Positions 21,321 to 64,000 of a stretch of 64,000 nt of DNA are shown in pieces. Numbering within the stretch: position 1 is the first letter of the stretch; each line of letters begins with the position of its first letter. The DNA is from Candidatus Obscuribacterales bacterium. Lineage in GTDB: Bacteria; Cyanobacteriota; Vampirovibrionia; Obscuribacterales; Obscuribacteraceae. The stretch lies in assembly GCA_020050685.1 (NCBI GenBank), contig JAGVKG010000060.1, positions 1 to 64,000 on the forward strand, given 5' to 3'. The notes under the pieces were generated by a model. The model saw only the letters and a list, made by a program, of their open reading frames with translations, made no database searches and was not told where the DNA came from. The translations under genes were made by a program, and so were the position numbers.

Positions 21321-24248
21321 ATGAAAAATATGAGTAGCTTGCGTTCAACAGCGTGGGTTTCTTTCCTTGCGCTTTTACTTTTCTTTACGAATGCGCCGGG
21401 AGCCATGGCAGATCCTCAGGCAGGCGGATGGGCGGCACGACAAGCAACACGTAATATGGATTTGGATCTTTCATCGTCAAACGCTTCAGTTGCTGCCAAT
21501 GCAAGGCTATTTAGCCAGGTGGGTTCTGTCGACATTCAAGTTGCCGGTAATACCAGAACGGTAACGGCAGGCGACATGTTGACACCGGCTGAGTTTGTGG
21601 CAATGACGCAAGTCTTGCGGTCCGGTGCGCAAAATCTCGTACTTGATACGCAAGGTAGAGCATCGGGCGGAACATTTTCGCTCACCCAACTTGGTGTCAG
21701 CCAGCTTTCATCACTGGTGATTCCAGCAAATGTCACAGCCCAAGCCCAAGGTCTTGCTTCGATATTGAATGTGCAAGGGCAATTCTCCACCCAAGGTACT
21801 TTGTCGGGAGCAACACGGCATCTCATGGTCAACGCAGGTTCCGTTGATGTTGGCACGGGCGGTGTGGTAACAACTGTTTCTCCAAATAACCGTGCGGTTG
21901 ATCTTTCAATTTCATCGCTCGCCAATATTTTCAACTCCGGATCAATTACTGCCTCAGGTGTTTTGAATTTGAGTGCAGCCGGCGATATCGTTAACGCTCT
22001 TCCCAATGGCACAAGTGGTGCGGCACCAGTTATGTCTGGTGCAATGGGTACAAATTTGTATGCAGGCTCGGGACAGTTCGTCAACTCTGGACTAATTGCT
22101 TCGCAATCTGGTTCTGTTAATTTCGCAACCGGAGCGACAACGGATCTGGTTCTCAACAACGCAAGCGGGCAAGTGCAAGCCCTGCAATCTATTAACATGC
22201 GCGATGCCATGTTTGCCGGCAAACAACTGACAGCTGTAGATGGTGGCACGTTCACAGCAGAGAACGCCAACTTTTATGGTGGTGACGGACATGTTAGGGC
22301 ACATACCCATCAACTTGCAGCCCTGGCAAATATTTATGCCGGTACTGCTTCTTTGCTGAATAGCAGCGGTGATTTGAATGTTGGCACAATTACTCTCAGT
22401 GGAGATCCAACTATTGCCAATTCAGATGGCGATGTAATCTTGAATGGCAATATCACCGTTCCCGGTAACGACGTAGCGATTATTGCCTCTGAAAACGTCA
22501 GGGTTGCTACAGGGGCAAAAGTAGCGATAAACCTTTCAACCAATGTTCCTGATGCAAATGGGGGAAATTTACACATCATTGCTGGATTTGACTTTACGCC
22601 AGCTACACCCGGCCAAGTGACGGACACCACAACCACATTTACATTCCCGGAAGATGGCGATCACTCATTTTTCGGTGGTGGCATCCAACTACAAGGAGTG
22701 GCCATTAATACCTCAAGCTCCGCTTCTGCTGGAGATAGCTCGGCCGGCAATGTAACTTTAATAGCCGCAAAAGGCAGCGCGCCAAATTTCAATCCTAATA
22801 ATTTGCCCCTCATAGTTACAGGTGGTATCACCGCTGCAAGCAAGAGAGGTGTTGGTGGCAATGTAACCGCCATTGGAGAATGGAGTGTCTCTGTAGGCGG
22901 GCCAATCGACGTAAGTGGTACATTTGGCGGCGGAACAGTGAGTATTACTGGCGGAAGCCCCATAATAGAAGGTGGAGACATCACTTTCCTCAATGGCACC
23001 GTCGGTGGTGACGGAAATTTTGGCATGGACTTTCCAACTGGCGCACCGATTGTAGTTGCCGGAAAAATCAACGCCAGCGGCACTCAAGGTCCTGGCGGAG
23101 AAATCATTTTTTTTAGTGGCGGCAATGTAGCAGTGACAGGGGCAATTAGTGCTACTGGTGGAAGCATTGGCGGCGAATTCGGCGAAGGCTTTGCCGGTGG
23201 CAGCCTGACAGTTGACAGCGGCAGTTTTGTTTCTCTCAGCAGTGTCACATTGAATGGTGGCGCATCGCCTGCACCAGCTCCAGCTGGCGATGGTGGATCA
23301 CTAACAATTTTTGCAGCCGCGGCAATAATAAATGGCCATGTCAATTTGCAAGGTGGCGATGGGAAATCCGGCTTAGAAGGATCGGACGCTGGTTTTGGCG
23401 GCACACTTAACGTAGACATTTTCGCACCGGGTGGATCCTTTCAAGTACTGAAAGGTAGCATCGATTTAAGCGGTGGCAATGCCTCTGCTGGTGGTGGTGG
23501 AGCTGACGGCGGTACGGCAACTATTTTTGCAGATGAGCTTTTAATTCAAGGTGATATGAATGTTTCTGGCGGCAATTCTTCAGGAGCATTTTTCTTTGGC
23601 GGCAACGGTGGAACTATTGATCTTACTGGTACAGGCGACTATACAATTACCGGCGACGTGGAATTGAATGGTGGCAATGCCACCGGAATGGAAGGCTTTG
23701 GTGGCTCAGGCGGTGGTCTGACTGTAGATCTGCCAGGTGGAAGTTTAACAATTGACGGAGCAATAAATGCCTTTGGTGGCTCAGGTTCTGGAAGTCCTGG
23801 TGGCGGCGGTGATGTATTCATTGTTGCAAACGAAGTTATGGTTGGAAACAATATTTACTTGGCAGGTGCAAATGCAACACTTGCATTCGCACCTGGCGGT
23901 TTTGGTGGCAATTTGACAATTATGGCTCTCAATTCAATTATGGTGGATGGAAACATTGTCACAAGAGGTGGCTCTAACAAATCTACTGTTATAGAAGAAG
24001 GGGCCGCTGGCGGGGATTCTGGTTCCGTCCTTTTGGAAACAGGATTAGTAGCTGATGCCTACGACGGCATCTTCGATGATCCGACTACCTTTAGGCTTGG
24101 ATCGATTGTGGTAAGCGGTTATGTTGATGCGCGTGGTGGCGATGCTTCCGCTGCTGATGGAATTGGCGGTTTAGGCAACGACGTGACAATGTCAGCCGCC
24201 ACCGTTCAAGTGAAGGGTAAAAATGGAAACTTCAGTGTCAGTTCATAG
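21321..24248 (+). CDS. secreted filamentous-haemagglutinin-like protein, N-terminal part (ends at in-frame TAG)
   Basis: A 975-residue product with a clear signal peptide: Lys, hydrophobic core WVSFLALLLFF, cleavage near APGAMADPQ. The rest is Gly/Ser/Thr/Asn-rich with short repeated beta-strand units, typical of a right-handed parallel beta-helix surface protein. From about residue 415 the segment IIAGFDFTPATPGQ and a long GG-x-(L/V)-x repeat region match the paralog at 50-64 kb. The frame ends at TAG 24246-24248, but it stays open for another 830 codons after that and the protein family continues across it. I therefore read this as the N-terminal half of one interrupted 1,805-residue gene. 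The start is ATG 21321 with AGGTGG upstream. A beta-barrel transporter partner is not in the window. Confidence 0.8.
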   Translation: MKNMSSLRSTAWVSFLALLLFFTNAPGAMADPQAGGWAARQATRNMDLDLSSSNASVAANARLFSQVGSVDIQVAGNTRTVTAGDMLTPAEFVAMTQVLRSGAQNLVLDTQGRASGGTFSLTQLGVSQLSSLVIPANVTAQAQGLASILNVQGQFSTQGTLSGATRHLMVNAGSVDVGTGGVVTTVSPNNRAVDLSISSLANIFNSGSITASGVLNLSAAGDIVNALPNGTSGAAPVMSGAMGTNLYAGSGQFVNSGLIASQSGSVNFATGATTDLVLNNASGQVQALQSINMRDAMFAGKQLTAVDGGTFTAENANFYGGDGHVRAHTHQLAALANIYAGTASLLNSSGDLNVGTITLSGDPTIANSDGDVILNGNITVPGNDVAIIASENVRVATGAKVAINLSTNVPDANGGNLHIIAGFDFTPATPGQVTDTTTTFTFPEDGDHSFFGGGIQLQGVAINTSSSASAGDSSAGNVTLIAAKGSAPNFNPNNLPLIVTGGITAASKRGVGGNVTAIGEWSVSVGGPIDVSGTFGGGTVSITGGSPIIEGGDITFLNGTVGGDGNFGMDFPTGAPIVVAGKINASGTQGPGGEIIFFSGGNVAVTGAISATGGSIGGEFGEGFAGGSLTVDSGSFVSLSSVTLNGGASPAPAPAGDGGSLTIFAAAAIINGHVNLQGGDGKSGLEGSDAGFGGTLNVDIFAPGGSFQVLKGSIDLSGGNASAGGGGADGGTATIFADELLIQGDMNVSGGNSSGAFFFGGNGGTIDLTGTGDYTITGDVELNGGNATGMEGFGGSGGGLTVDLPGGSLTIDGAINAFGGSGSGSPGGGGDVFIVANEVMVGNNIYLAGANATLAFAPGGFGGNLTIMALNSIMVDGNIVTRGGSNKSTVIEEGAAGGDSGSVLLETGLVADAYDGIFDDPTTFRLGSIVVSGYVDARGGDASAADGIGGLGNDVTMSAATVQVKGKNGNFSVSS

Positions 24249-24254
24249 GGCGGT

Positions 24255-26741
24255 TTGGCACCAGTTGCGCTTGGCACGCCTGGGGATCCCGGTATTATTA
24301 CCATCGAAACGTTTGGCACTCAACCTCTGCCGACAAACTTCAACCTCACAAGTACAACACAAAGTGAGTTTGCCTTACCTGGCGGACTGTTTAACGTAGG
24401 CAATGCCACAGTCAATGGTAGTGCAGCCAGTATTGTTGCTGGAGAATTTTCTGCCACATCTCAAAACGCAGGTAATGTACTAACGAATTTCGATGCCGGC
24501 ACTGGTCAACTGACAATTACGGTCACCGGCAACTCATTTAACGTAACAGGCGTAACCGGCCCAATCACTTCTGGTGCAACCGGCACCACTCGAAACAAGG
24601 TAACACCGGGTGTTGCACTTGCCTTATTCCAAGTCACGCGCAATACAGCTCTTGATGCTCAGACAATAGGACTTAACCTCCAGGGTCAGGTGACTGACAC
24701 CAATCCTCAAACCTCAGCTTCACCAAGCGTGCTGACAATTGCCGCGACTGATTTATACCGCTCATTCACAACTTTCAATTTAGCAACATCCGTTGCCAAT
24801 CAAGTGGAACTGGTAGTCAATCTAGCATCATCAGGTCCAACCAACGCCCTGATGGATCTTTCAGTAGCAAGCCTAATCAATATCGCAGGCCGAATCAATT
24901 TTGCTGAACCTGAATCTAGCACAATTGCGTTCGGTAGCAAGGCACCATTTATTGCCCAAACCGGCCGCATATTTACACATGCAGATGGCATTCTGACGTT
25001 AACGAGCACCAATTCAACCTGGACTCTTAATGGCATCATTGAGGCAGACCAAATCACCTTAAGAAACCCCTCTGGTGGAACCAATTTGATGATGTCATCT
25101 TCTGCTCAACTAATTGGCTTTGATGGAGATAGCCAACTCTTCCTCTCTGCCGTCAAGAATTTCAACATTGTCAACGCAACTCCAAATTTAACGCCACCAC
25201 TAATCAACAACTTGCGAATTTCAGCAGCAGCAGCCTCAATACAAATTGGCAGTATTCCAAAATCAGGGCCAGCTGCACCGATACTTCTTGGTTCTGGCGC
25301 AACCTTCCTAACCATGGCAGCTGGTAATGGCACACTCGGTATAGTTGCAGTCGGAAATATTGTTACACAAGCGCTTGAGATTGCACCAGGATTTTTCACA
25401 TTTGCAAATATGACAGGCGCAACAGGTGTATCAATACAGACTACTGGAAATATCGAATTCGATGAGTTGGCTTCGGTTAGGACATCAATGACATCAACGA
25501 AGGCGACGATTTCGATGGCGGCAGCCAATGTAATATTTGCCGACAATGTTACTGTTGATAGCAGTGCTGCAATGACGATTAATGCCACTCAACAGATTAC
25601 TCAAACCGGTGATGGCAACTTATTCATCAGCGACAACGGTACAATCCTGATAATTGGTCAGCAAGGCGTTAGCTTGGAAAGCGATTTCTTCTTCACTAAT
25701 CAGGACATACATGTTACAGGACTTGCCGGCACTATTGATCTTTCCAATAGCCAATTCACCTCCCTTGCTTCAAATGCCACATTAGGAAGCTACAAACCAG
25801 CCAAGGGCGCTCAGTTTACCTTTGCCGGTGATCTAATTGTTGGCGGTGATTTCACTACAAAAACCGGTATGACTATGGATGCAGATTCCGTGACCATAGA
25901 GGATGATAGTACAGTCTATAATACGCTAGGCAGCGGCTCTATCAATATAATTTCCCGGACAGGCGATGTGCTAATCGGCGATGGAGCTGAACTGCAAGCT
26001 GGAATGCTTTTCCCTGCACCACCACCAGGAGTGCTTGCCACAAACAACATACAGTTTAAGGGAAGTGTAAATATAACTGCACAAGGTGCATTTAACCTTG
26101 GCCACAGCGGACTGATTCAATCGGTCGGCGGTGACGTCAAAGTCGCAACTAACACAGGCGATATAAACTTGGACAACTCAGTGCCGAACGGCGAAATTAG
26201 AGCAGATGGTGGCAATATTGTCTTTGCTGCAGCAGGAGATATCCTAAACAATGACAATGACTCTTTCATCTTCTTTGCCAGAGCCGTCGGAACTTCAAAG
26301 AGTTTCACTGGTGGTGGCATATCACTAGTTGCCGGCAGTTCTAATATTGTCCAAGCCTCTACCGATCTAGTTAACGCTCTCAAGACAAGACCAGCAACGT
26401 TTCTATCAGTACCTGATCCGTTCACTGGTTTTGGCGTGACCTTAAATGCCGGCACCAGAGGGGTAGCTCGAGCTACTTTTGGTACAGTGGACTCAATAGA
26501 TATGGCGATTAACGGTAGTAATTCCGGATTCAACGTTAATGGTGGTGTCATAACACTGACAACGACTGCCGGTGGAGCAGTAATAGAAATGGACAATGTA
26601 AATGCAACTGCACTTGCACCAATTGCATTCCACCAAAAAAACAATTCTATGAATGCAGAAAGTGGCGCTGAACTAGTTGTCGATACTGGAGACGATTTCA
26701 GCTCGGAAGATGAAGTGCAAGATATGGCACTTGCGAAATAA
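24255..26741 (+). CDS. C-terminal part of the same adhesin-like gene, downstream of the in-frame TAG
   Basis: This 828-codon stretch is in the same frame as the preceding half and begins right after its TAG. Its opening (IITIETFGTQPLPTNFNL, SEFALPGG) aligns with an uninterrupted stretch of the giant paralog (INTFSIQPLPTNFDL, SEFAMPGA), so it was once translated as one protein with the upstream part. No signal peptide is present. A TTG at 24255 behind AGGGCGG could allow reinitiation, but the product would lack an export signal. The end, with (V/I)VDTG(D/E)D followed by an acidic tail, matches the end of the giant paralog. It is a pseudogene fragment, a read-through product or a sequencing error; the sequence alone does not decide. 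Confidence 0.65.
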   Translation: MAPVALGTPGDPGIITIETFGTQPLPTNFNLTSTTQSEFALPGGLFNVGNATVNGSAASIVAGEFSATSQNAGNVLTNFDAGTGQLTITVTGNSFNVTGVTGPITSGATGTTRNKVTPGVALALFQVTRNTALDAQTIGLNLQGQVTDTNPQTSASPSVLTIAATDLYRSFTTFNLATSVANQVELVVNLASSGPTNALMDLSVASLINIAGRINFAEPESSTIAFGSKAPFIAQTGRIFTHADGILTLTSTNSTWTLNGIIEADQITLRNPSGGTNLMMSSSAQLIGFDGDSQLFLSAVKNFNIVNATPNLTPPLINNLRISAAAASIQIGSIPKSGPAAPILLGSGATFLTMAAGNGTLGIVAVGNIVTQALEIAPGFFTFANMTGATGVSIQTTGNIEFDELASVRTSMTSTKATISMAAANVIFADNVTVDSSAAMTINATQQITQTGDGNLFISDNGTILIIGQQGVSLESDFFFTNQDIHVTGLAGTIDLSNSQFTSLASNATLGSYKPAKGAQFTFAGDLIVGGDFTTKTGMTMDADSVTIEDDSTVYNTLGSGSINIISRTGDVLIGDGAELQAGMLFPAPPPGVLATNNIQFKGSVNITAQGAFNLGHSGLIQSVGGDVKVATNTGDINLDNSVPNGEIRADGGNIVFAAAGDILNNDNDSFIFFARAVGTSKSFTGGGISLVAGSSNIVQASTDLVNALKTRPATFLSVPDPFTGFGVTLNAGTRGVARATFGTVDSIDMAINGSNSGFNVNGGVITLTTTAGGAVIEMDNVNATALAPIAFHQKNNSMNAESGAELVVDTGDDFSSEDEVQDMALAK

Positions 26742-50065: not shown

Positions 50066-53000
50066 TTAAGGCTGGATTTCAACATTATGCAAAAGCGAAA
50101 CTGGCAGAGCTGAATCTTCAATATCTGCTCCATCCTCACCGGTATCGACTATTGCTTCTCCCGCTTCTTGAGTTAAGTGTTCGTAAGCCACAGGGGCATC
50201 GACACGAACCGTGGCGCCATTAATGTTGACCTGCTTGCCGTTGCCCTTACCGTCGAGAATAACCGCGCCACCGAATATATCAAGCAAGCCAGGATTGCCA
50301 CCGGTACCGAGGCTGACAGAGCCAGAACCAGAGAGATTAACTTGCACCACGCCGCGATCGATGGAATTGTTATCGATGGTTACCGTGCCAATTGGTGGCA
50401 GTGGATTTGGCTGCAAGGTAAATGTGGCTGGACGATTAGCTAGCAGCTTAGCCAAGTTATTAACATTGGTCGTGCCCGAACCGAATTCAACACCGCCTCC
50501 GGTAAAGGAGGAGAGCGTGCCCACTGCACGTGCAGTGAAGGTGCCATCCGTGCCACCGGTCAATGAATTGTTGGAAAGGAAGAGGATGTTGCCGCCATTG
50601 GCTTCCACTTGTAAGGAATCACCAAATGTCAGACTTTCTGTCATGTTAGCGGTCAGCTGAACATTGCCACCATTGGCTATCAATGTTGTTTGATCAGCGC
50701 CGGCACCGGAATTGATGGTGAAGATGCCGCTTGTGTTATCACCGGAACCTGAGCTGATGATAATGCTTCCAGCAGCAAGAACATCGGCTGATGCAAGCAC
50801 GCCTGTTGCTGGTGCTAATGGCGATAAGGTTCCAGCTTGCAAGGTATTGCCTAAGCCAATTGTAGTTGCCGTCTTAGATGTAATAGATAAGTTACCAGCG
50901 TTGGCTTGCAGGCTGACGCCAGTTCCTGTCGTGAACGCTGATGCAGAAATGGTCATGCTGGTCGCGGAATTCAAACTGGCACCAGCGCCGACTGCGAGGT
51001 TGCCTTGGTTACTCTTATATGTAAAGCTACCAGAAGTTGTGGTAATTTGGGCACCATCAGCAATTGCCATGCTGATATTGCCCGGAGCAAAATTCATGCT
51101 CACAGCCGTGGAAGTGCCAAGAGCATTATTAACAAAGTTGCCACCTCTCACGTCCAGGGCTCCGTTCGGCATGTTGAACATTACTTGCCCGCCAGCCACT
51201 GGTGAAGAAATAGTTGACATTCCGAGAGTAAGTTTTAAGGATGTGGCTGAATTTGTCATGGTGACGTTGGCAAAGTTGATTGGGCCTTGAATATTCCACT
51301 TGGCATTGGAACCGGTAAACTCAATTGAACTAAAACCTAAGCTTGTGAAGGAACCCGTAGTTGCAAGCGGGAAGGCCGCGTCACCGAGTGCCACCAAAAC
51401 ATTCGTGCCGCTTTGTGCAAAGTTGAGCGTGCCGCCAACATACGGTTTAGTTACACCAACCAAATTCAATAATGCTTCGTTGCCAGTGATATTAATTGTC
51501 ATCACACCGGAGCCAGTGGTCTTGATGTTGAAGGCTGTGTACTGCGGCAAAAGCTCAAAGCCAGGAATTGTGATTTGGCTCGGACTTGATGGCGATTGAG
51601 GATTCTTATTGGTCACAGCACCGGAATTATTCAGACCAATTGTTTGTGCAGTTGCACTTGAATCACGTGAAACTTGGAAGAGTGCCAATGCTTGTCCAGG
51701 AGTAACCATGGTGCGGACTCCGGAACCATTATCAACGTTGATGGTATTGGCGGTACCATTTTGATTAATGGTATAGCTGGATGGACCAGTAACAGTCAGG
51801 CTAATCGAACCATCTGCAAATGGATTGGTGGATACAATTCTTCCGGCATTACCGGTAGTGGCAGAGTTGCCACCACTAACGATGGTGCCAGCCGTACCAT
51901 TGGCTTCGGCATTGCCAACAGCGAACATCGCACCTGGCATAGCAAACTCACTTAATGTGTGGCTTGCCAGATCGAAGTTCGTTGGCAATGGCTGTATCGA
52001 GAAAGTATTGATTGTGACAGCACCACTTGCACCCGGCAACCCTCCACTACCAGCGCTTGTATTGATGCTTACCCCAGCATTCATGCCTATTACACGTACT
52101 GCCCCAGTTGTCACAGTCATCGTTCCCCCGGCACCGCCATTGCCTGTCGCCGAGTTACCACCACGCATGTCCATGTATCCGCCCACTACCAAATTACCAA
52201 CATGGTACGGACGGGAATTAAATCCGCCAAGAGTATTGACGTTAGTCAATATTGAAACATTGCCAGCCTGACCACCTTCTCCAGAACCAAGAGCTTGTCC
52301 GCCATTGGTAATGATATTGCCACCAACGGAGATAAAGGCTGCTGCATTTAATTGTACAAAGCCACCATCACCACCTGGGTTTGCTCCGGCAGCAGGCAAT
52401 CCAGAAGTATCAAGGTTGCCGCTTACTGAAAGCGTTGAGCTGAGTGATTGAATTGTCACTGAACCACCAGCTGTACCCGATGTTAATATGCTGCCAGTCA
52501 TCGCCACTTGCGCACCGCTGGCAAGAACCACAGCTCCACCTGCACCACTGACGCCGGCGGTTGTGATGTTACCGTTAACATTGATTTGTGCCATCGTTCC
52601 ATCTACAGGATCAACGGCTATGAATCGTCCAGTTCCACCTTGAATGCCATTTGTAAATGTAATAGCACCACCTGTGGTTTGTGGCTCCGCAGCAATTAAG
52701 AACACCGAACCACCCTTATTAGTTCCGGCCGTATTTATAGAACCTGATTGCACTCCACCTTGACCAAGCAATGCCACCAAGCCACCATTACCAGCACCAG
52801 AGCTGGTGTTAACCGCGCCAATTGCAATCTCGCCATCGTTAAGCAATCCTGCATGAGCAGCGATGTAAACATCACCACCAACATTGCCCGTGGAATTTGT
52901 CAGAATTTGCACATTGCCCATTTCAACCGAACCACCAGTTGCAGATGGTCCAACCAAAGTGTAGGTATTTGATGTATCGGTAATTTGTCCTGCGGTTGCT

Positions 53001-56000
53001 GGTGTAAAGTCGAAGCCGGCAACAATTGAAAGTCTGCCACCAGCACCAGTTGTGCCGGAAAGATCAATCATTGTCATACCGGATGCAGCAATCACATTTC
53101 CTGATGCCAGTACTGCCAAACTGCTACCGTTGAAGACCAAATTGCTCGGCAAGACAACATCACCAACAGTGTTGACGATTGTGCCGCAACCGGAAGCACA
53201 TGTGCTGCTGAATGTGAATGTACCAGCAGCTGTTAAACCTGGCGGTGGATTGATCAATGTGCAAGCATTCACTGTCACATCACCTGTGCCATCAACGCTA
53301 ACACCAGAATCAACTTCGACAACCGAGGCAGGTCCGCTGGCAGTAATTGTTGCATTACCATTCAAGGTTTGATCACCTGTGAAATGCAATGGGCTATTGG
53401 AAGAGGATAATGTGATACCAGCTTGGGCAACTAGCGAACCACCACCACTTACTTCCAAGGCACCAAGTGCTGGGCTGGAAACATTGACTGTTCCTGCAGC
53501 ACCACTACCAGTGATGGTGAAGGCATTAGCCAAAGTTGGCGTGATCAATTGCACAAACTGCGCAGTCAAATCGCCAGCCGTTGTCAGAGTGCCGGTGGTT
53601 GTCAAATTGAATGTCGTACCGGCACTAGACTCATCCAGAATCACAGCTCCTGTTTGGGTGACATAAACCACACCACTAGCTTCTGCAGACAGCATGGATG
53701 CTTGGGTAGCAATTGCCGTGCCACCAACACCTGGGTTGCTACCGATGCTTCCACCAGCAGCCTGCAACTGCACCATATTTGCCGTTAGCGTGCCGGACTC
53801 GCGAGTAATGCTGCCGGTGCCCGAAGCACTAAGAATGATTGTTCCACCACTTGCCGTTATGCCACCATCGATTTCAATATTCGCGGCACCAGTTGTGGTG
53901 AAGCTAAAGGTCTTGCCACTGCCAACGGAAATTGCCGAAAGCGTGACTGAACTGGAATCCTTGACGTAAACATTGCCAGTGGTAGTGACTGACAAATTCG
54001 CTGCTAAGGTAGAAATGTTACCGGATTCTGATCCGATATCACCTGAGTCGGAAGTCAACGTCAAGCTGGGTGATACCACGACAGCCACTGATTCTTGAAT
54101 TGAGCCAGCACCATCTGCATCAAGTGTTACGGATGTGCCACCAGTTATGGTGCTGGCACCGAGATCAATTGAACCATTGGATAGTGTAGTCAAATTAAAA
54201 TGATTACCGGATGATGTACCAAGATTGACAGTGCCACCAGTTGGTGTAACTGTGACGAACACATCGCCTGCCGTATTCAATGCATTATTGACAGTAAGGC
54301 TTGAAGCATTGGTCAAGATATTATTGCCAAAGCTACCGATTGCACCGCTGCCAGACTGCAGAGCAAGTGTTGTCGTATCAATATTGCCTGTGGTTTCGGT
54401 AATCGTTCCAGATCCTGCGGCAGTTAGCGATACTGATGTTCCTCCAGTCAGAGTGCTGGCACCCAAGACAATGGAACCATTTGTCGTTAAATTGAAATTG
54501 TTGGCAGAAGATGAACCCAAGGCAACGGTGCCACCAGTTGGCGTGGCGATAACAAATACATTACCAGTTGTATTGAGAACGCCGTTAACGGTCAAGCTTG
54601 AGGCAGTGGTTTGAATGTTGGCAGTTTGGCTACCAATTGAGCCACTACCCGACTGCAGGTTCAAAGTAGTTGTTGCGATGTTACCAGTGGTCTCGGTAAT
54701 TGATCCTGAACCATGAGCGTTCAATGTCACCGAAGTGCCACTAGTCAGTACGCTTGCGCCCAGGGCAATCGAGCCATTCGACAAAGTGGAAAGATTGAAA
54801 TTATTGCCTGATGATGTGCCCAGGTCGACAGTGCCACCAGTTGGTGTGACCGTAACGAATACATCACCGCTTGTATTAGTGGTGCTATTGACACTGAGGC
54901 TCGAAGCATTCGTCAAAATGTTGTTGCCCGAGCTGCCAATTGCTCCACTTCCTGATTGCAAGGAAAGCGTGGTCGTAGCGATATTGCCTGAGGTTTCTGT
55001 GATTGCACCAGAACCATTGGCGGTTAGCGAGACTGACATACCACCGGTTAATGTGCTGGCACCCAAGGCAATCGAGCCATTCGACAATGTTGTCAAATTG
55101 AAATTGTTACCAGACGATGTTCCTAAGCTAACGGTGCCACCGGTTGGTGTAGATGTAACAAACACATCGCCTGTCGTATTCATTGTGCTGTTGACGGTCA
55201 AGCTCGAGGCATTGGTCATGACGTTGTTGGAGCTTGTGCCCACCGAGCCACTGCCGGATTGCATATTCAATGTCGTCGCGGCAATGCTACCGGATGCGTT
55301 GAGAATGTCTCCAGATCCATCGGCAATAACATTGACAGTTGTACCGGAAACCGTATTGCCACTACCCATATTTAAGGTAATAGAACCATTGCTTCCGGAC
55401 GCACTGGTCAAATCAACCGTGCTGCCACTGACATTGTCAGTCAGAGTCAAACCATTGTTGCCGGTGAGAGAAACTGCTCCAGCAGACGAAACTGCACCAA
55501 CTGTTAATGATGTCGTGCCGGCGGCTTGCAAGCTGACGGTTGCACCATTGGCGGTGGCAGTACCAGAAATTGAATTAACATCAACTGAGACATCGCCTGT
55601 GCCACCGTTGAAACTGACAGTGCCTCCGGAACCGGCAAGCAAGTCTCCCAAGCCGGACGATGTAAAGATCACATCACCAGAGTTTATACTATTAAGTTCA
55701 ATATTGCCTGACGCACTAATTTGTGATCCGGCTGCCATATCGACAGAAAGAACAAAAGTCGGATCCGGTGGATTTATTGCTTCAATTCCCAAGGTGCCAT
55801 TAGCATTTGATACAGATGCACCGGGCATAAGGTTGAGGTTATTAACAAACAGATAGCCGTTGAGTTCAAGCGAACCAGAGACATTAAGCGTGTAAGGTGC
55901 CGCAACTGAACCATCTGAAACTATTGCAGCATTGCTACCTATATTCTTAGTGCCAGCGTCGAAAGTTATGAGTGCCAACAAACCACCGTTACTATTAAAA

Positions 56001-59000
56001 TTGAATGTTGCATTATCGATCGGTGAACCGGCTGAGTTAGCAAAATAAATCGAACTACCGCTGCCAGTTGCAGTGAGAACAATGTAACCACCATTGGAGC
56101 TTATTGTATTGCTTGTGTCATCACCAGCTGAGACATTCAAATCGCTTGTAACCAATCCGGAATCAATTAGGATTTGCGAAGCAGCGGTTGCTTGCAAGTG
56201 AGCATTGTTGCCACCAAACACAAGATTCGGTGCACTCAAGTGCACATCGCCACCACCGGCAACAGTCAAGTTCAAGCTGTCAGCAAGAGTCAAAGATGTT
56301 GTAGCAGAGAATGTTGTTGTGCCGCTATCAGTTTGATCAACCAAGCCACTACCGGCAAGTGTCAAGTTGCTCGTGCTTGTCACGGTTATTGAATTGCCGC
56401 TTGCACTGCTTCTTAGTGTGCCATCATTGGTCATTGTGCCGCCATTAGCATTCATTGTCATGGCATTGTCTGAATATAAAGTAGTGTTGGCGGAAACAAC
56501 CATATTAGTGGCAGTAGCACTGACAGCTTGACCATTCAATGCCAGCTCGGCCGGTCCACCATCATTATCGAAAGTCAAAGTTGCCGAGGCACCAGCGGTG
56601 AGTACGACTCCACCAGAACCATTCTTGGTGAGAGTGGCAGGTGAAAGTGTCGACGTGACCATGAGAGTTGGGGCATCAATTAGAAGTTGACCATTGCCAC
56701 CATTAACTGTTTGGTTGACATCAAGCACACCGCCAAATGTAATCTGGCTATTGGCAGCAAATCTAGTTGTGCCATTGCTGGTTTGAGTAAAGGCACCAGT
56801 ACCATCCAAGGTCCAAGCGCCACCCGTGTTTTGCACCAGGATGGATGTTCCACCGGCAGACGATTGAATCGTGCCATTGTTGGTCAATGTGCCGCCATTG
56901 ACGTTCATGGTTATTGAATTGGATGAAGACAGTGTAGTGCCGCTGTTCAACATAATATCGTTGGCGGACATAGTGACATTAGCACCATTGAGTTGAAGCC
57001 CTGCAGCAGATCCATCATTGCCGACGGTCAAAGTTGTCGAGGCACCGGATGTGACCATGATCGAACCGGCACCATTTTTGGTAATTACCGCTGGTGCGGT
57101 TGCAGATGCAACTGTCAAAGTTGGGGCATCAATGACCAACTGACCATTGCCACCATTCACAGTTTGATTGACACCAGATGCACCACCAAACGTAATTTGT
57201 GTATCGGCAGCCAATCTGGTCGTACCGTTGCTTGATTGATCGAAACTGCCTGTGCCATCAAGTGTCCAGCCGCCCGTTGTATTTTGGACAACCAGCGATG
57301 TTCCACTTGCCGATGAGCCAAGCGAGCCATTGTTGGTTAAAGTGCCACCATTGACATTGATTGTCAGGACAGCATTAGACGATACTGATGCATCCGATTC
57401 TAAAGCCAGGTTGAAACTGGTTGTCGTCACACTAGAACCATTCAATATAAAGGTTGTGCTATCTGTACCAGGATTCGGCACGCCGAATGTGAGCGTATCA
57501 CCGGACATTGGCTGCAAGTTAAGAGTACCAGCAGCAGCTAATGTGGCAGGGCCACCATCCACACCTTGCAAACGGTTGGCTTGAACCAACATCTTGCCGG
57601 CTGTTGTTAAGTTGGTTCCATTGTTCAGAAGCAATGTTGTAGCACCAAATGCAAGAGTGTTGCTCGCAGCACCAACATCAAATACGCCTTGGCTCGAACC
57701 ATTACCACCAGCCAGTGACAGATTAGCGACACCATTGACACTGATTGTCTGTGCATTGGTTGAAGCTCCCGTATAATCAACCACACCATTGTGAGTGAAG
57801 GTTCCACCGGAAGCAAGATTTAAATTCATGGCATTGTTGGAAGCTAGTGTCACACCACTATTGATAGTCAGGTTAGTGCTATTGGTCTCTAATTGACCGC
57901 CATTGAATGTCAAAGTTGCGTTAGAACCAGCTTGTAAGCCCATCGTCAATGTGCCACCAGCATTGCTTATATTGAATACGGTTGTACCGCTGGAACCATT
58001 GAAGGTCGGCGTGCCACCATTATTGCCTTGCAAGAGTGGCACAACCATATCGAGCTCGCCACCATTACCAATTGTTTGAATGAAGCTGCTATCCAAAACA
58101 ATGGCTGTTGGTTGAGTGATACTCACCTTATTGCCGGTGCCTGGGTTGAGGCTGCCCGAACCATTCATCATAGTCATTGTCGAGGTCACAGCTGAACCGG
58201 CATTAATGCTTATTGTTGTTGCACCAGTTGCTGCGCCTGTATAAGTTAAAGCACCAGTATTACTAAATGTGCCATCGACCACTTCGATGTTAAATCCGGT
58301 ATTGCTATTTTGATTTCCGGAATTTGAATAGCTGCTTGGATCAACATCGATCAAACCATGAGCAGAAATAGTGCCATTATTCGTAAAGCTTCCCGGCGTC
58401 GTGAATTTAATTCCGCCGGAAGTTGTGCCAACGTTTGTGCCTGTATCTACCAGGATATTGCCACTGTTGGTAACGTTGATACCGCCACCGCCAACTGCAC
58501 CATTCACAGTTAGATTTCCATCAACGCCGTTTGTAGCCGCACTTGAGGAAATCGTGAATGTTGTTGCGCTGTTGGCAGTCAGGTTGATCGTGCCACCAAC
58601 ACCGGATCCGGCAGCATTGGCAGAGAGCGAATTGCTAACAAACAAGTTACCAGTTCCACCGTCACCGGCAGTCAGGTCATAGATTGCGCCATTACCGTTG
58701 CCACCACCTGGGGATGCGTTCAAGAAGGTTGGATTAACCGTAAGATCTTGACCAGCTGTCAGGTATACTTCACCACCGCTGCCTGTTGCACCGCCAGTTG
58801 CAGTAACTTGGAATTGTCCGGCAACCGTCGGATCACCAACTACTAAATTGGACGTACCGGACATAGTCACGGAAACAATACCACCCTTACCGCTGCCAAG
58901 TCCGTTAGCAGACAGGCTCAAACCGGTAGCCAACGATTGGGCAATAATAATGATTGTGCCACCAAATGAACCCGGAGCCGTAGCATTAACCGATAACGAA

Positions 59001-62000
59001 CCGGTGGTCGGTGAAAGATTATTGACTGTCAATGTGCCACCAGCGGCATTGAGGCTTATCGTGCCACCATTAGTACCACTGAATGCATTCACCGAACCAG
59101 CCAAGTTAATCGCTTGCGATAGCATTGCCACTGTGCCGTTGGATGCAGTAAGAGTTTGGCCGGATGCTAAATTGATAGCGCCCGTTCCGTGCGTTTCCAG
59201 ACCCAAGTTAGTGCCGGCGGTAACCGCTGCGTTTAAATCAATATTGCCATTATTGGATAATGTTTCTATTGTCATTGCACCAGCCGTGGTTACCGCATCA
59301 TTCAATTCAATGCCACCATGGGCAGACAGCAACAAGTCGCCGTCACTAGTCAATGAACCACCAGATCCGAGCAAGAATGCTGTTCCGGACATTCCGGAAT
59401 TGACAGTGATAACACCAACAGAAGCCGGACCAGGGCTTGTGAATTCCATGGTACCTAAGAGTGTAATTGGATTAGCAATTCCATCATTGGCTAAGAACGA
59501 AATGGAATCAGATGAACCGAATCCATCAAATGTAATGACGACACTGCCCGGAATGTAGCCAGCCATATTAGCTGCCGTTTGACCCGGAGCAATAATCACA
59601 TTGCCACCAGTAGCAATGCCACCAGATTCAGTCAGTATACCGCCCAATAATCCTTGTTGTTGCAAGCTAATGATACTGGCCACAACCGATGTGTTATTCA
59701 AATCCAAACTCGTGACAATAGCCAAGTTCGGATCAAGACTTGGATTCGGAGTATTGTCCAAACCAGTGAAGACTTGAGTGCCGACCACGAATGAAGGATC
59801 AACCGGTGCCAATTGCGATGGGGGGTCGGCAGTAATTGTCGTGCCACCATTTAGGGTAATGGCACTGGCTGCTAAGGAACCTGTATTGAAGACTACATTT
59901 GTGCCAATTGCCGTAATGTTGTTGGTTGGTGCATTAGCAGTAATGCTATTAGCACCCCAGAATACTTGACCGCCATTAGCTGTGGTCACATTAACGTTAG
60001 ATGGAGCTGTGCCGGCAACCGGGCTAACAGGAACAGCACCGATGACAATATTGACATTTCCAGCGGCTGGTTGCTGGTTGGTAAAGGCGATAATCGAAGC
60101 ATTGGTATCAATCAAGATTGAACCGCCACTGGAAGTGAAATCGTTTTCGATTGTAATGTTGCCGTTGTTGGCGAACAAGGAGCTACCGGCAGCAACAGTC
60201 ATGGTGGTTGTACCAGCGGTATTGGCGCGATTGACAAATATCGATCCGCCACCGGCAAATATACTGCCGACATTCACAGCACCAGCGTTCACTACCAAGC
60301 TGTAGCTTGTGCCACCACGTCCATCAACGCTGCCAGTATGCGATTGAATGGTGGCATTGACAAAGCTATCGGTGCTAGCAAGCGTTGTGTTCGTGCCAGT
60401 AAGAATAGTCTGACTGCCTGAATTGGTAAGCGTGATACCACCGCCGGATGTCAGACTTATGTAATTGGAAACTGCTGAGTTGATACCACCAGCATTAAGC
60501 GCATTGGTAGCAGTGATTGTTCCATACGGGGCAGCAAGAATGATATTGCCTGCTGATGTACCGGCCGTTGATGAGGATGACGATGTATTGATTGCGCCTG
60601 CAGCATTAATCGTATTGGAAGCTTGTGATAGTGAATACATTTCCACAGCGCCTCCAGATACGGAAGCTGATGATGTATTGATTGATGAAAGTGTGATTGT
60701 GCCACCAGTAAAGAGTGTAAAGTGTTGGCCGGCACCACTAACCGTACCAAGTGCTGCATTATTTTGGACCACGGCTAATGGCAGTCCAGTTAAGCCGTAG
60801 TTTGTTAAGGTCAACGTAGAAGTATTGGAGAAGCTGCTAAAGCCACCACCCGGTAACAAATCAGGTGATATGGAAAATACGCCGGTCGAAGAGAAGGCTC
60901 GCGGCAAGACAGACTTGTTCGTATCCGTTGTTGCGCCACCACCACCAGTAATTGTGGCACCGGATGTGAACATTGATGCAGCACCTGGCGCGGCACCAGA
61001 AACGTTGAAAGAACTGACATTTATGGCACCAGCAGGATTATTCAGAGTGCTGAGCGTCGTACCACTAGCTGTCGATAATGGTTGAGCCGTGGTGATCATC
61101 AACGTACCACCAACAGATGCACCACCACCGGTTGCCGCTGCACTGAGAGTAGCAGTTGTCAGAGCGCCAACCGAGGAAAGGTAAATTGCACCGCCTCGAC
61201 CACCGGAGCCGCTGGCTTGAGCATTGACGTTATTGAGAGAAATGCTACCACGTGATACCACAGCAATCGAGCCGCCGCTTGTCGTACCATTTGCAGATAC
61301 AGGAACTGGTGATACTCCAGATGTTGTGATTGATCCAGTGCCATAGTTCACGAAGAAGATATTGCCGCCTTCACCAGCAGTGGCATCGGCAGTCACTCCA
61401 ACCATATGGGAAAGAGAAATATTGCCGGATGATGTCGTCACCAGACTAATTGAACCACCACGAGTCGTACCATTAGCATTGATAACAGCACCAACCGGAC
61501 CAGTACCGGATCCGTTAAGCACTGAGCTTATACTGCCAGCACCAACCAGATAAATTTCACCACCGGCTCCATTGCCAGATGAAACATCAATACTGGAATT
61601 GTATGTAAAGCCTATTGGATGTCTTTGGTTTAGCGTAATGCCGTCACCATAGTTGGAAATTCTGACCGTGCCACCTGTGCCGGCAGAAGAGGTTGCAGTA
61701 ATTGTCGTCTGATATATCTCAATTGAACCAAATACGCCAAGCGTAGATATATCAATCAATCCACCACGCACCGTGCCGTTGGCGGATACTGTATTTTGAG
61801 TTTGGTTGCTTGACATGCTTAACATGACCCCAAGAGGAGCCGAAATTCTAATCACACCACCGTAACCTGCTGTGCCATTTGCATTGAAACTGCCACCACT
61901 GTACAAAAGGAAATCCGGACCAATCAAGTTTATGATTCCACCGTTAGCGCCCGATACATCTATACCTGAAACATAGAGCGAGCCGGGTGTGGACATGGTT

Positions 62001-64000
62001 ACTAGTCCGCCAACAGATCCTGCTGGGTCCGTTGCCTTTGCTTGAATGGAGCTTGCGAAAGTATCAATTGCAAAGTAAACAGAGTTAATCAGCACACTAC
62101 CACCAGCAGTAGCACCGTTTGCGCTAATCGTAGCGGTACTGGTGCCAGTGCAGCAAATCGTGTTGTCGCGAATAACATTTACTGCCAATGGTCCAATCAA
62201 ACTAACCGTGCCACCAAATCCCAATGTAGATGATGCATCAATATTGGCATTGTAATGGTTAGTGGTATCCCACTCAGAGAAAACATAAACTGGTCCATTA
62301 ATTGATTGCAGCAATATTGAACCGCCGGAGACCGATGTGCCTGTAGCCAAAATAGACGTTTCGTAATCAGTCACACCCCAACCGTTCGCATCCTGACCAG
62401 CAAGAATGCTAATTGAGCCACCGGTTTGACCAGAAGCATTTACGGTGTTGCCAGTCTGATTATCGGCAGCACCCAAGAATACAGAACCATTTAGACCTGC
62501 CACCAAAATAGATCCGCCGAGTCCCACATTGCCAACTGAATGAGCAAGCAGAGATGAACCACTTGGAACGTTAACACCAGTTTGTCCAACTACTGCCATC
62601 AATCCACCAGTAGTACCACTAACGTCCACGCCTTGAACAGAAGTGAAGCCCACCGTACTTTCTATATAAGCAAGTCCACCAGCTTGCGTAGCACTGGCAG
62701 AGGTCACATTACCAGTTAACGTGATACTGCCTGCACCAATTAAGGTAACAGGGCTTGGTCTGTTGCTTGTCACAGCGCCAGTCAATCCAGCAAGCGAAAT
62801 ATCTCCGCCATGGGCAACAACCGGAACAATCAAGCGGTTATCACCGTGCGTATCAATAGTCAGTACATTGCCAGGTGCATTGATAGAAGTAAAGCCACCA
62901 GGATTAAAGACACTTACTCCCGAAGTTTGGAAGTCCAATGTTGCTGCACCGGTAATCGATGAGCTTATGCTGGTCGGCGTGCCACTAAATGTTGCGCCAG
63001 CCGTGCCACCAGTTTGCGACATTGTCCCCAAACTGGTCGTTACGCCTGTGCTGTAAACAAAATAGGCATTGCCACCCAAATTGCCAGCACCACTGCCGGT
63101 GGCATTAAGGTTGATGTTGCCAGTCGTGATGCCTGTACCGGCTGTATTCTTGCCCGGTGACAAGAACAAGTCACCAGCTTGAGCAGTAGTGCTCGAACCA
63201 TTGCTATTTGCATTTGCCGTAATTGCGCCAAGCGCAATTGTGGAAGCATTACCTCCAGCCACCATGCCAATGCTGCCTGCCACTCCATTCAATCCAGTTG
63301 CACTTGTGGTAATTGCGCCACCGGAAATATTGCCATCGGCATTAGCAACAATAAGATGTCCACCAAAGGCAACTGCAGATGTATTGACGATACCGAATGT
63401 CAATGTTCCGCTTTGAGCTGGTGCTAAAGGTGTTCCGGTTGTGCCGGCTGCCATAAATACTGTGCCGCCGCGCCCTGCGGTACTTGTGGTGGAAGTAGTA
63501 ATGTTACCGGCGGAAACCGTTCCAGGAGCCGTCAAATTCACTCTGCCACCATTGCCAACATTACCGGCACCTGTACTGGATAGTGCCCCAGTAGAAAGAT
63601 TACCGGTATAAATATCGCCAACGCCAGCCGCAAGTACGATGTCACCACCACTGCCGGATGCAGTACCACTATTAGCAGAAATGCCCAAAGTAGTGATATC
63701 GTTCATGGCCGCCACAAATACGTTGCCACCATTGCCACCAGTTCCGGTGTTAGAAGTAGTAATACTTCCGGAATTCATTACAAACGAATCGCCAACTGCA
63801 CTCACCGAGCCAGCCGTCGCACCAGATGAGCTGCTCGTATCAATGCCACCCGTAATAGCAACTGCACCAGTTGTAACCGTAAAGCCATCAAAGTACCAAC
63901 TTTGAATTGTGACACTGCCAGAGCTTCTGCCACCACCCGTGCCGTTCGTCTTAATACCATTTGTCGTAATTGTGATGCTCTCTCCCAATTGCGAAATCAA
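50066..64000 (-). CDS. giant filamentous-haemagglutinin-like/adhesin protein, 3' part (runs off the window)
   Basis: An uninterrupted minus-strand frame of at least 4,644 codons extends beyond position 64000, so the N-terminus and any signal are not visible. The protein is made of Gly/Ser/Thr/Asn-rich short beta-strand units (ANGTTSGGSIAVVS, SGAGGAV, VGGTINLT), consistent with a very long parallel beta-helix. Two families of long internal repeats occur (near 54.1-55.3 kb and 56.2-57.4 kb). Its last 1,000 residues match the split adhesin gene at 21.3-26.7 kb (IVAGFDFTPATAGQ, SIQPLPTNFDL), and both end in IVDTG(E/D)D plus a short acidic tail. Few Lys, Cys and charged residues overall. A surface or extracellular role is likely; the target is unknown. 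The dense open frames on the opposite strand here are antisense shadows. Confidence 0.87.
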   Translation of the reverse strand: MISQLGESITITTNGIKTNGTGGGRSSGSVTIQSWYFDGFTVTTGAVAITGGIDTSSSSGATAGSVSAVGDSFVMNSGSITTSNTGTGGNGGNVFVAAMNDITTLGISANSGTASGSGGDIVLAAGVGDIYTGNLSTGALSSTGAGNVGNGGRVNLTAPGTVSAGNITTSTTSTAGRGGTVFMAAGTTGTPLAPAQSGTLTFGIVNTSAVAFGGHLIVANADGNISGGAITTSATGLNGVAGSIGMVAGGNASTIALGAITANANSNGSSTTAQAGDLFLSPGKNTAGTGITTGNINLNATGSGAGNLGGNAYFVYSTGVTTSLGTMSQTGGTAGATFSGTPTSISSSITGAATLDFQTSGVSVFNPGGFTSINAPGNVLTIDTHGDNRLIVPVVAHGGDISLAGLTGAVTSNRPSPVTLIGAGSITLTGNVTSASATQAGGLAYIESTVGFTSVQGVDVSGTTGGLMAVVGQTGVNVPSGSSLLAHSVGNVGLGGSILVAGLNGSVFLGAADNQTGNTVNASGQTGGSISILAGQDANGWGVTDYETSILATGTSVSGGSILLQSINGPVYVFSEWDTTNHYNANIDASSTLGFGGTVSLIGPLAVNVIRDNTICCTGTSTATISANGATAGGSVLINSVYFAIDTFASSIQAKATDPAGSVGGLVTMSTPGSLYVSGIDVSGANGGIINLIGPDFLLYSGGSFNANGTAGYGGVIRISAPLGVMLSMSSNQTQNTVSANGTVRGGLIDISTLGVFGSIEIYQTTITATSSAGTGGTVRISNYGDGITLNQRHPIGFTYNSSIDVSSGNGAGGEIYLVGAGSISSVLNGSGTGPVGAVINANGTTRGGSISLVTTSSGNISLSHMVGVTADATAGEGGNIFFVNYGTGSITTSGVSPVPVSANGTTSGGSIAVVSRGSISLNNVNAQASGSGGRGGAIYLSSVGALTTATLSAAATGGGASVGGTLMITTAQPLSTASGTTLSTLNNPAGAINVSSFNVSGAAPGAASMFTSGATITGGGGATTDTNKSVLPRAFSSTGVFSISPDLLPGGGFSSFSNTSTLTLTNYGLTGLPLAVVQNNAALGTVSGAGQHFTLFTGGTITLSSINTSSASVSGGAVEMYSLSQASNTINAAGAINTSSSSSTAGTSAGNIILAAPYGTITATNALNAGGINSAVSNYISLTSGGGITLTNSGSQTILTGTNTTLASTDSFVNATIQSHTGSVDGRGGTSYSLVVNAGAVNVGSIFAGGGSIFVNRANTAGTTTMTVAAGSSLFANNGNITIENDFTSSGGSILIDTNASIIAFTNQQPAAGNVNIVIGAVPVSPVAGTAPSNVNVTTANGGQVFWGANSITANAPTNNITAIGTNVVFNTGSLAASAITLNGGTTITADPPSQLAPVDPSFVVGTQVFTGLDNTPNPSLDPNLAIVTSLDLNNTSVVASIISLQQQGLLGGILTESGGIATGGNVIIAPGQTAANMAGYIPGSVVITFDGFGSSDSISFLANDGIANPITLLGTMEFTSPGPASVGVITVNSGMSGTAFLLGSGGSLTSDGDLLLSAHGGIELNDAVTTAGAMTIETLSNNGNIDLNAAVTAGTNLGLETHGTGAINLASGQTLTASNGTVAMLSQAINLAGSVNAFSGTNGGTISLNAAGGTLTVNNLSPTTGSLSVNATAPGSFGGTIIIIAQSLATGLSLSANGLGSGKGGIVSVTMSGTSNLVVGDPTVAGQFQVTATGGATGSGGEVYLTAGQDLTVNPTFLNASPGGGNGNGAIYDLTAGDGGTGNLFVSNSLSANAAGSGVGGTINLTANSATTFTISSSAATNGVDGNLTVNGAVGGGGINVTNSGNILVDTGTNVGTTSGGIKFTTPGSFTNNGTISAHGLIDVDPSSYSNSGNQNSNTGFNIEVVDGTFSNTGALTYTGAATGATTISINAGSAVTSTMTMMNGSGSLNPGTGNKVSITQPTAIVLDSSFIQTIGNGGELDMVVPLLQGNNGGTPTFNGSSGTTVFNISNAGGTLTMGLQAGSNATLTFNGGQLETNSTNLTINSGVTLASNNAMNLNLASGGTFTHNGVVDYTGASTNAQTISVNGVANLSLAGGNGSSQGVFDVGAASNTLAFGATTLLLNNGTNLTTAGKMLVQANRLQGVDGGPATLAAAGTLNLQPMSGDTLTFGVPNPGTDSTTFILNGSSVTTTSFNLALESDASVSSNAVLTINVNGGTLTNNGSLGSSASGTSLVVQNTTGGWTLDGTGSFDQSSNGTTRLAADTQITFGGASGVNQTVNGGNGQLVIDAPTLTVASATAPAVITKNGAGSIMVTSGASTTLTVGNDGSAAGLQLNGANVTMSANDIMLNSGTTLSSSNSITMNVNGGTLTNNGTIQSSAGGTSILVQNTGGAWTLDGTGAFTQTSNGTTRFAANSQITFGGVLDVNQTVNGGNGQLLIDAPTLMVTSTLSPATLTKNGSGGVVLTAGASATLTFDNDGGPAELALNGQAVSATATNMVVSANTTLYSDNAMTMNANGGTMTNDGTLRSSASGNSITVTSTSNLTLAGSGLVDQTDSGTTTFSATTSLTLADSLNLTVAGGGDVHLSAPNLVFGGNNAHLQATAASQILIDSGLVTSDLNVSAGDDTSNTISSNGGYIVLTATGSGSSIYFANSAGSPIDNATFNFNSNGGLLALITFDAGTKNIGSNAAIVSDGSVAAPYTLNVSGSLELNGYLFVNNLNLMPGASVSNANGTLGIEAINPPDPTFVLSVDMAAGSQISASGNIELNSINSGDVIFTSSGLGDLLAGSGGTVSFNGGTGDVSVDVNSISGTATANGATVSLQAAGTTSLTVGAVSSAGAVSLTGNNGLTLTDNVSGSTVDLTSASGSNGSITLNMGSGNTVSGTTVNVIADGSGDILNASGSIAATTLNMQSGSGSVGTSSNNVMTNASSLTVNSTMNTTGDVFVTSTPTGGTVSLGTSSGNNFNLTTLSNGSIALGASTLTGGMSVSLTANGSGAITETSGNIATTTLSLQSGSGAIGSSGNNILTNASSLSVNSTTNTSGDVFVTVTPTGGTVDLGTSSGNNFNLSTLSNGSIALGASVLTSGTSVTLNAHGSGSITETTGNIATTTLNLQSGSGSIGSQTANIQTTASSLTVNGVLNTTGNVFVIATPTGGTVALGSSSANNFNLTTNGSIVLGASTLTGGTSVSLTAAGSGTITETTGNIDTTTLALQSGSGAIGSFGNNILTNASSLTVNNALNTAGDVFVTVTPTGGTVNLGTSSGNHFNLTTLSNGSIDLGASTITGGTSVTLDADGAGSIQESVAVVVSPSLTLTSDSGDIGSESGNISTLAANLSVTTTGNVYVKDSSSVTLSAISVGSGKTFSFTTTGAANIEIDGGITASGGTIILSASGTGSITRESGTLTANMVQLQAAGGSIGSNPGVGGTAIATQASMLSAEASGVVYVTQTGAVILDESSAGTTFNLTTTGTLTTAGDLTAQFVQLITPTLANAFTITGSGAAGTVNVSSPALGALEVSGGGSLVAQAGITLSSSNSPLHFTGDQTLNGNATITASGPASVVEVDSGVSVDGTGDVTVNACTLINPPPGLTAAGTFTFSSTCASGCGTIVNTVGDVVLPSNLVFNGSSLAVLASGNVIAASGMTMIDLSGTTGAGGRLSIVAGFDFTPATAGQITDTSNTYTLVGPSATGGSVEMGNVQILTNSTGNVGGDVYIAAHAGLLNDGEIAIGAVNTSSGAGNGGLVALLGQGGVQSGSINTAGTNKGGSVFLIAAEPQTTGGAITFTNGIQGGTGRFIAVDPVDGTMAQINVNGNITTAGVSGAGGAVVLASGAQVAMTGSILTSGTAGGSVTIQSLSSTLSVSGNLDTSGLPAAGANPGGDGGFVQLNAAAFISVGGNIITNGGQALGSGEGGQAGNVSILTNVNTLGGFNSRPYHVGNLVVGGYMDMRGGNSATGNGGAGGTMTVTTGAVRVIGMNAGVSINTSAGSGGLPGASGAVTINTFSIQPLPTNFDLASHTLSEFAMPGAMFAVGNAEANGTAGTIVSGGNSATTGNAGRIVSTNPFADGSISLTVTGPSSYTINQNGTANTINVDNGSGVRTMVTPGQALALFQVSRDSSATAQTIGLNNSGAVTNKNPQSPSSPSQITIPGFELLPQYTAFNIKTTGSGVMTINITGNEALLNLVGVTKPYVGGTLNFAQSGTNVLVALGDAAFPLATTGSFTSLGFSSIEFTGSNAKWNIQGPINFANVTMTNSATSLKLTLGMSTISSPVAGGQVMFNMPNGALDVRGGNFVNNALGTSTAVSMNFAPGNISMAIADGAQITTTSGSFTYKSNQGNLAVGAGASLNSATSMTISASAFTTGTGVSLQANAGNLSITSKTATTIGLGNTLQAGTLSPLAPATGVLASADVLAAGSIIISSGSGDNTSGIFTINSGAGADQTTLIANGGNVQLTANMTESLTFGDSLQVEANGGNILFLSNNSLTGGTDGTFTARAVGTLSSFTGGGVEFGSGTTNVNNLAKLLANRPATFTLQPNPLPPIGTVTIDNNSIDRGVVQVNLSGSGSVSLGTGGNPGLLDIFGGAVILDGKGNGKQVNINGATVRVDAPVAYEHLTQEAGEAIVDTGEDGADIEDSALPVSLLHNVEIQP
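54110..55330 (-). repeat. tandem ~100-residue repeats in the giant protein (four copies)
   Basis: Copies are recognisable by TPTGG-coding points at 54234, 54531, 54834 and 55137, that is, periods of 297, 303 and 303 bases (99-101 codons). Each unit carries the sequence order T-P-T-G-G-T-V-x-L-G, N-F-N-L-T, L-x-G-x-S-V and S-G-S-I-G. The copies differ at many third positions as well as at some amino acids, so they are not very recent. Confidence 0.85.
56230..57400 (-). repeat. ~151-residue repeats in the giant protein (two clear copies, one degenerate)
   Basis: The motif V-N-G-G-N-G-Q-L-x-I-D-A-P-T-L is encoded at about 56690 and 57144, exactly 453 bases (151 codons) apart. The preceding block T-L-T-N-N-G-x-x-x-S-S-A-x-G-T-S recurs with it. 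A third, weaker copy lies around 56230-56460. This family differs from the ~100-residue repeats just downstream in the protein. Confidence 0.75.

Follow-up and report, generated by a model that had tools for sequence, protein, structure and literature searches.

One of about 25 paralogous secreted solenoid genes in a Candidatus Obscuribacterales genome is probably interrupted by a recent nonsense mutation

Genes that stop at a single codon and then continue, open, in the same frame raise the question of whether that codon marks a true loss, a regulated or leaky signal, or an error. Such a gene was found in a 64,000-nucleotide stretch of DNA (the window) from a Candidatus Obscuribacterales bacterium, which is part of contig C52 of a draft genome of 4.2 Mb in 70 contigs, estimated at 98.7% complete. 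Among named records, the closest to the neighbouring aspartokinase come from Candidatus Obscuribacterales metagenome bins (71% and 66% identity), consistent with an uncultured organism within or near that order. Translation of positions 21321–26741 yielded 975 residues, one stop (TAG), a further 830 codons and a TAA at 26739–26741, about 1,806 codons in total (Table 1), in agreement with a first-pass annotation that had described 975 open codons, a TAG at 24246–24248 and ~830 codons more in the same frame. The ATG of the gene is preceded, 5 nt upstream, by a Shine-Dalgarno-like GAGGTG. Downstream of the TAG no further stop and no frameshift were observed, and codon usage in that half is retained in frame. 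The gene is 25–44% identical to its paralogues on either side of the TAG, its nearest homologue being only about 40% identical. This identity, together with the 830-codon open frame, indicates that the downstream frame is not a product of chance. As judged from the assembly consensus, from which alone the base is known, the TAG interruption is confirmed as a real feature of the assembled sequence.

Table 1. Coordinates of the interrupted gene, its parts and the giant paralogue within the window.
Feature	Positions	Strand	Description
N-terminal open frame	21321..24248	+	975 codons; signal peptide-like start, secreted beta-solenoid domain (predicted), Gly-rich repeats; closed by TAG
In-frame TAG	24246..24248	+	Sense codon in all aligned paralogues
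Same frame downstream of TAG	24249..26741	+	830 codons; C-terminal region with family tail ELVVDTGDD; terminates at TAA
Conserved C-terminal tail (approximate limits)	26630..26741	+	Common to twelve other paralogues in the genome
Giant paralogue	50066..64000	-	10,226-aa frame extending past the window on the contig; no interruption at the homologous point

The interrupted gene belongs to a family with about 25 paralogues in this genome, counted as matches to its N-terminal part, which was also matched in 38 of the order's 53 genomes (E ≤ 1e-30). Excluding the window gene itself, the open frames of the family in this genome range from 1,572 to 14,495 aa. The longest is on contig C34 (G000:C34:129723, L216), and several other members exceed 6,000 aa, and a noticeable share of the 4.2 Mb genome is taken up by giant genes for predicted secreted solenoids. 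The giant paralogues (the C34 frame and the gene at 50–64 kb of the window) have the same N-terminal domain as the window gene, and the gene at 50–64 kb also shares its C-terminal region and tail; they differ in being several times longer and uninterrupted. Searches of the N-terminal part against Pfam returned a weak match to DUF4097 and nothing more, and the family had no match in NCBIfam or in sequence searches of solved structures. A first scan of the genome contig collection found no homologue of the window gene, as did a scan of plasmids, and our literature search found nothing specific on this family in the Obscuribacterales.

An AlphaFold2 model of residues 1–620 (16-sequence alignment) confidently predicted an all-beta solenoid over residues 44–620 (pLDDT 87, pTM 0.83), and prediction of the C-terminal half was of low confidence (pLDDT 58). 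The top Foldseek matches were the two-partner-secretion proteins EtpA, HxuA and hemopexin-binding protein, with a best E-value of 0.05 and none significant. Like the exoproteins of two-partner secretion (EtpA, HxuA, HMW1), which have an N-terminal secretion beta-helix, the window protein combines a signal peptide-like start with a predicted long beta-solenoid. It differs from them in having no haemagglutination-type Pfam domain, and neither Pfam nor NCBIfam recognized a two-partner secretion domain in it. A search for the TpsB/ShlB-type partner (PF03865) gave no match in the genome, but control genomes gave none either. Based on the model, the protein looks like a secreted adhesin-type solenoid with a putative role in adhesion.

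Comparison with the paralogues addresses whether the TAG might be the natural end of the gene. Nine paralogues (L082–L089 and the giant gene at 50–64 kb) have a sense codon at the site and run on into the shared C-terminal region. The first-pass annotation had noted an alignment without a stop for the giant paralogue; the eight others extend this. The alignments take in a Q-x-P motif just downstream of the site, and the comparison excludes the case in which homologues naturally end here. A VDTGD-like tail, with the pattern (L/I)VDTGD, was found in twelve other family members of the genome; further members there end in a different type of tail. Since nine paralogues are open at the site and twelve others carry the tail, the window copy appears to have lost its tail rather than to end naturally. 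The alignments and conserved tails thus support the earlier view that a single codon divides a full-length from a tail-less form. Outside this genome, the C-terminal region was found in just two genomes, one from each of two further genera, and no copy there has a stop; the comparison with these two, which covers part of the region, shows the TAG site open.

The tails of the family are of two conserved kinds, an acidic VDTGD-like tail (L082–L089, L098, L100, L101) and an AAC...HGPY-like tail (L102–L107, L111, L112), which perhaps represent two anchoring or sorting routes.

It is scarcely credible that the 830 codons after the TAG form an independent gene with a start codon of their own. A TTG at 24255, 5 nt past an AGG, makes re-initiation just after the TAG conceivable; however, start signals are weak throughout, no signal peptide-like stretch was seen by eye at internal starts, and in all paralogues a single frame spans both halves.

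Whether the codon acts as a stop depends on the organism's decoding machinery. RF1 (prfA) is present in the genome, and at least five paralogues terminate at TAG. No tRNA with a CUA anticodon was found among 43 tRNA genes (Rfam search, 150 of 207 candidates scored), a census that is not full proof, as tRNAs for some ordinary codons (e.g., UCA) are also missing from the 43. On these observations reassignment of TAG was rejected, and, judged from gene content, TAG is an ordinary stop codon in this organism. The same observations bear on read-through of the TAG at some rate, which would yield two products, one short and secreted, the other full-length and bearing the tail. The downstream frame does stay open with no signs of decay, as read-through would predict, and Belinky et al. 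(2021, PMC7918605) argue for read-through of many bacterial in-frame stops. Nevertheless, RF1 is present, a CUA tRNA was not found, there is no stable RNA structure downstream of the TAG relative to shuffled sequences (z = -0.59), and the position of the TAG is not conserved in the family, whose other interrupted members have their stop elsewhere. For these reasons we consider read-through at this TAG very unlikely, and the suppressor read-through proposed by the first-pass annotation is unsupported; the amber suppressor tRNA that it suggested looking for was not among the 43 tRNA genes. A leaky TAG that lets this uncultured, non-photosynthetic relative of the cyanobacteria produce two secreted solenoid forms, a long one ending in the C-terminal tail and a short one lacking it, would be a highly improbable arrangement.

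Large sets of paralogous surface proteins are a common setting for phase variation, and a phase-like variant had also been suggested for this gene, whose surface protein would then be switched reversibly. That suggestion had no direct or inverted repeat behind it, as none was found within 200 nt of the TAG. No homopolymer run was seen by eye at the site, and we know of no high-frequency switch that operates by point substitution. Phase-like switching is therefore extremely unlikely here.

The surroundings of the gene offer some information on its history. Four relatives retain lysC followed by moxR-DUF58-tgpA and have no family member in between; in the three of these examined closely (L193, L196, L204), an opposite-strand glyQ occupies the lysC–moxR interval. 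In the present genome the window gene fills this interval and no glyQ was found; a dimeric-type glycyl-tRNA synthetase (glyS) is present on each of two small contigs, C23 and C24 (L214, L215). These contigs (4.7–4.9 kb) are 87–93% identical over most of their length, which may reflect strain mixture, duplication or contamination. An orthologue at the same locus was sought and is absent in the relatives in which lysC and moxR are linked. As these relatives have no family member there, we infer that the window gene arrived or expanded in this lineage, which is consistent with a dispensable copy.

The condition of the downstream half limits how long the TAG can have been present. In relative-rate tests with the closest paralogue and five outgroups, the window gene had not changed significantly more than that paralogue downstream of the TAG, and those differences that reach significance there run in the opposite direction. 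About 2% of substitutions would create stops; on the assumption that 10% of mutations are indels, the downstream stretch is unlikely to have taken more than roughly 30 neutral mutations (about 1.3%) and still lack a second lesion. A downstream half with no extra stop, no frameshift and no faster change points to a recent or polymorphic stop or to an error, and the lack of decay is equally expected of an error or of a gene that is read through.

An error in the consensus or assembly, with the gene intact in cells, is an unlikely explanation of the TAG, yet one to be weighed. The genome is a draft in 70 contigs, probably metagenome-assembled, with a contamination estimate of 3%; the 87–93% identity of C23 and C24 suggests that related strains or duplicated sequence were mixed in the assembly; and the downstream half looks fully functional. 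Against this, the TAG lies in non-repetitive sequence, where substitution errors in a consensus are rare if coverage is normal, and the window region is present as a single copy in the assembly.

Interrupted members of the family are also found in other genomes. Of roughly 150 matches to the N-terminal domain that were listed for the order, three carry one in-frame stop, two of them TAG and one TGA. These stops (in L108, L109 and L110, respectively, from three related genomes) are at positions that differ from one another and from that of the window gene. The frequency of stops in the family is about 3–4 per 100,000 codons, and as the family codons in this genome sum to about 100,000 (summed by hand), one interrupted copy is unsurprising, at about the level of chance. 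Published work has found in-frame stops to be widespread among bacterial genes and, for the most part, of young age (PMC7918605). The window gene resembles the transient in-frame stops of that study, in that a single substitution places a stop in an otherwise intact gene with a functional-looking downstream part. It differs in that those stops are common to orthologues of at least two species, whereas the stop here is known from one genome and as an assembly base only.

Overall, of the explanations in the first-pass annotation, read-through and phase-like switching lack support, and a nonsense mutation, a population variant and a base-calling error remain. Our data suggest that the TAG is probably a recent, ordinary nonsense mutation or allele. 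As in a unitary pseudogene, the in-frame stop lies where intact homologues continue the same frame, and the codon works as a stop in this organism. The downstream half, with neither further lesions nor a raised rate of change, would fit a stop too young for decay or a gene that is not a pseudogene. We propose that one substitution converted a sense codon to TAG in one of about 25 secreted beta-solenoid paralogues. Translation, as read from the sequence, would then end in the cell after 975 residues, leaving a product that would retain its signal peptide and roughly half the solenoid and would be without the C-terminal region and VDTGD-like tail. Such a product would probably amount to a loss-of-function or reduced form, and the many paralogues that remain may explain why it is tolerated. 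Either the allele would be recent, or the population would hold a second one as well.

By itself, a nonsense allele changes little when its paralogous family is redundant. Isolated nonsense codons recur in this family at differing positions, as expected of long redundant genes. The case also documents a large family of predicted secreted solenoid proteins in the Obscuribacterales, with open frames of up to 14,495 aa, that is missed by Pfam and NCBIfam.
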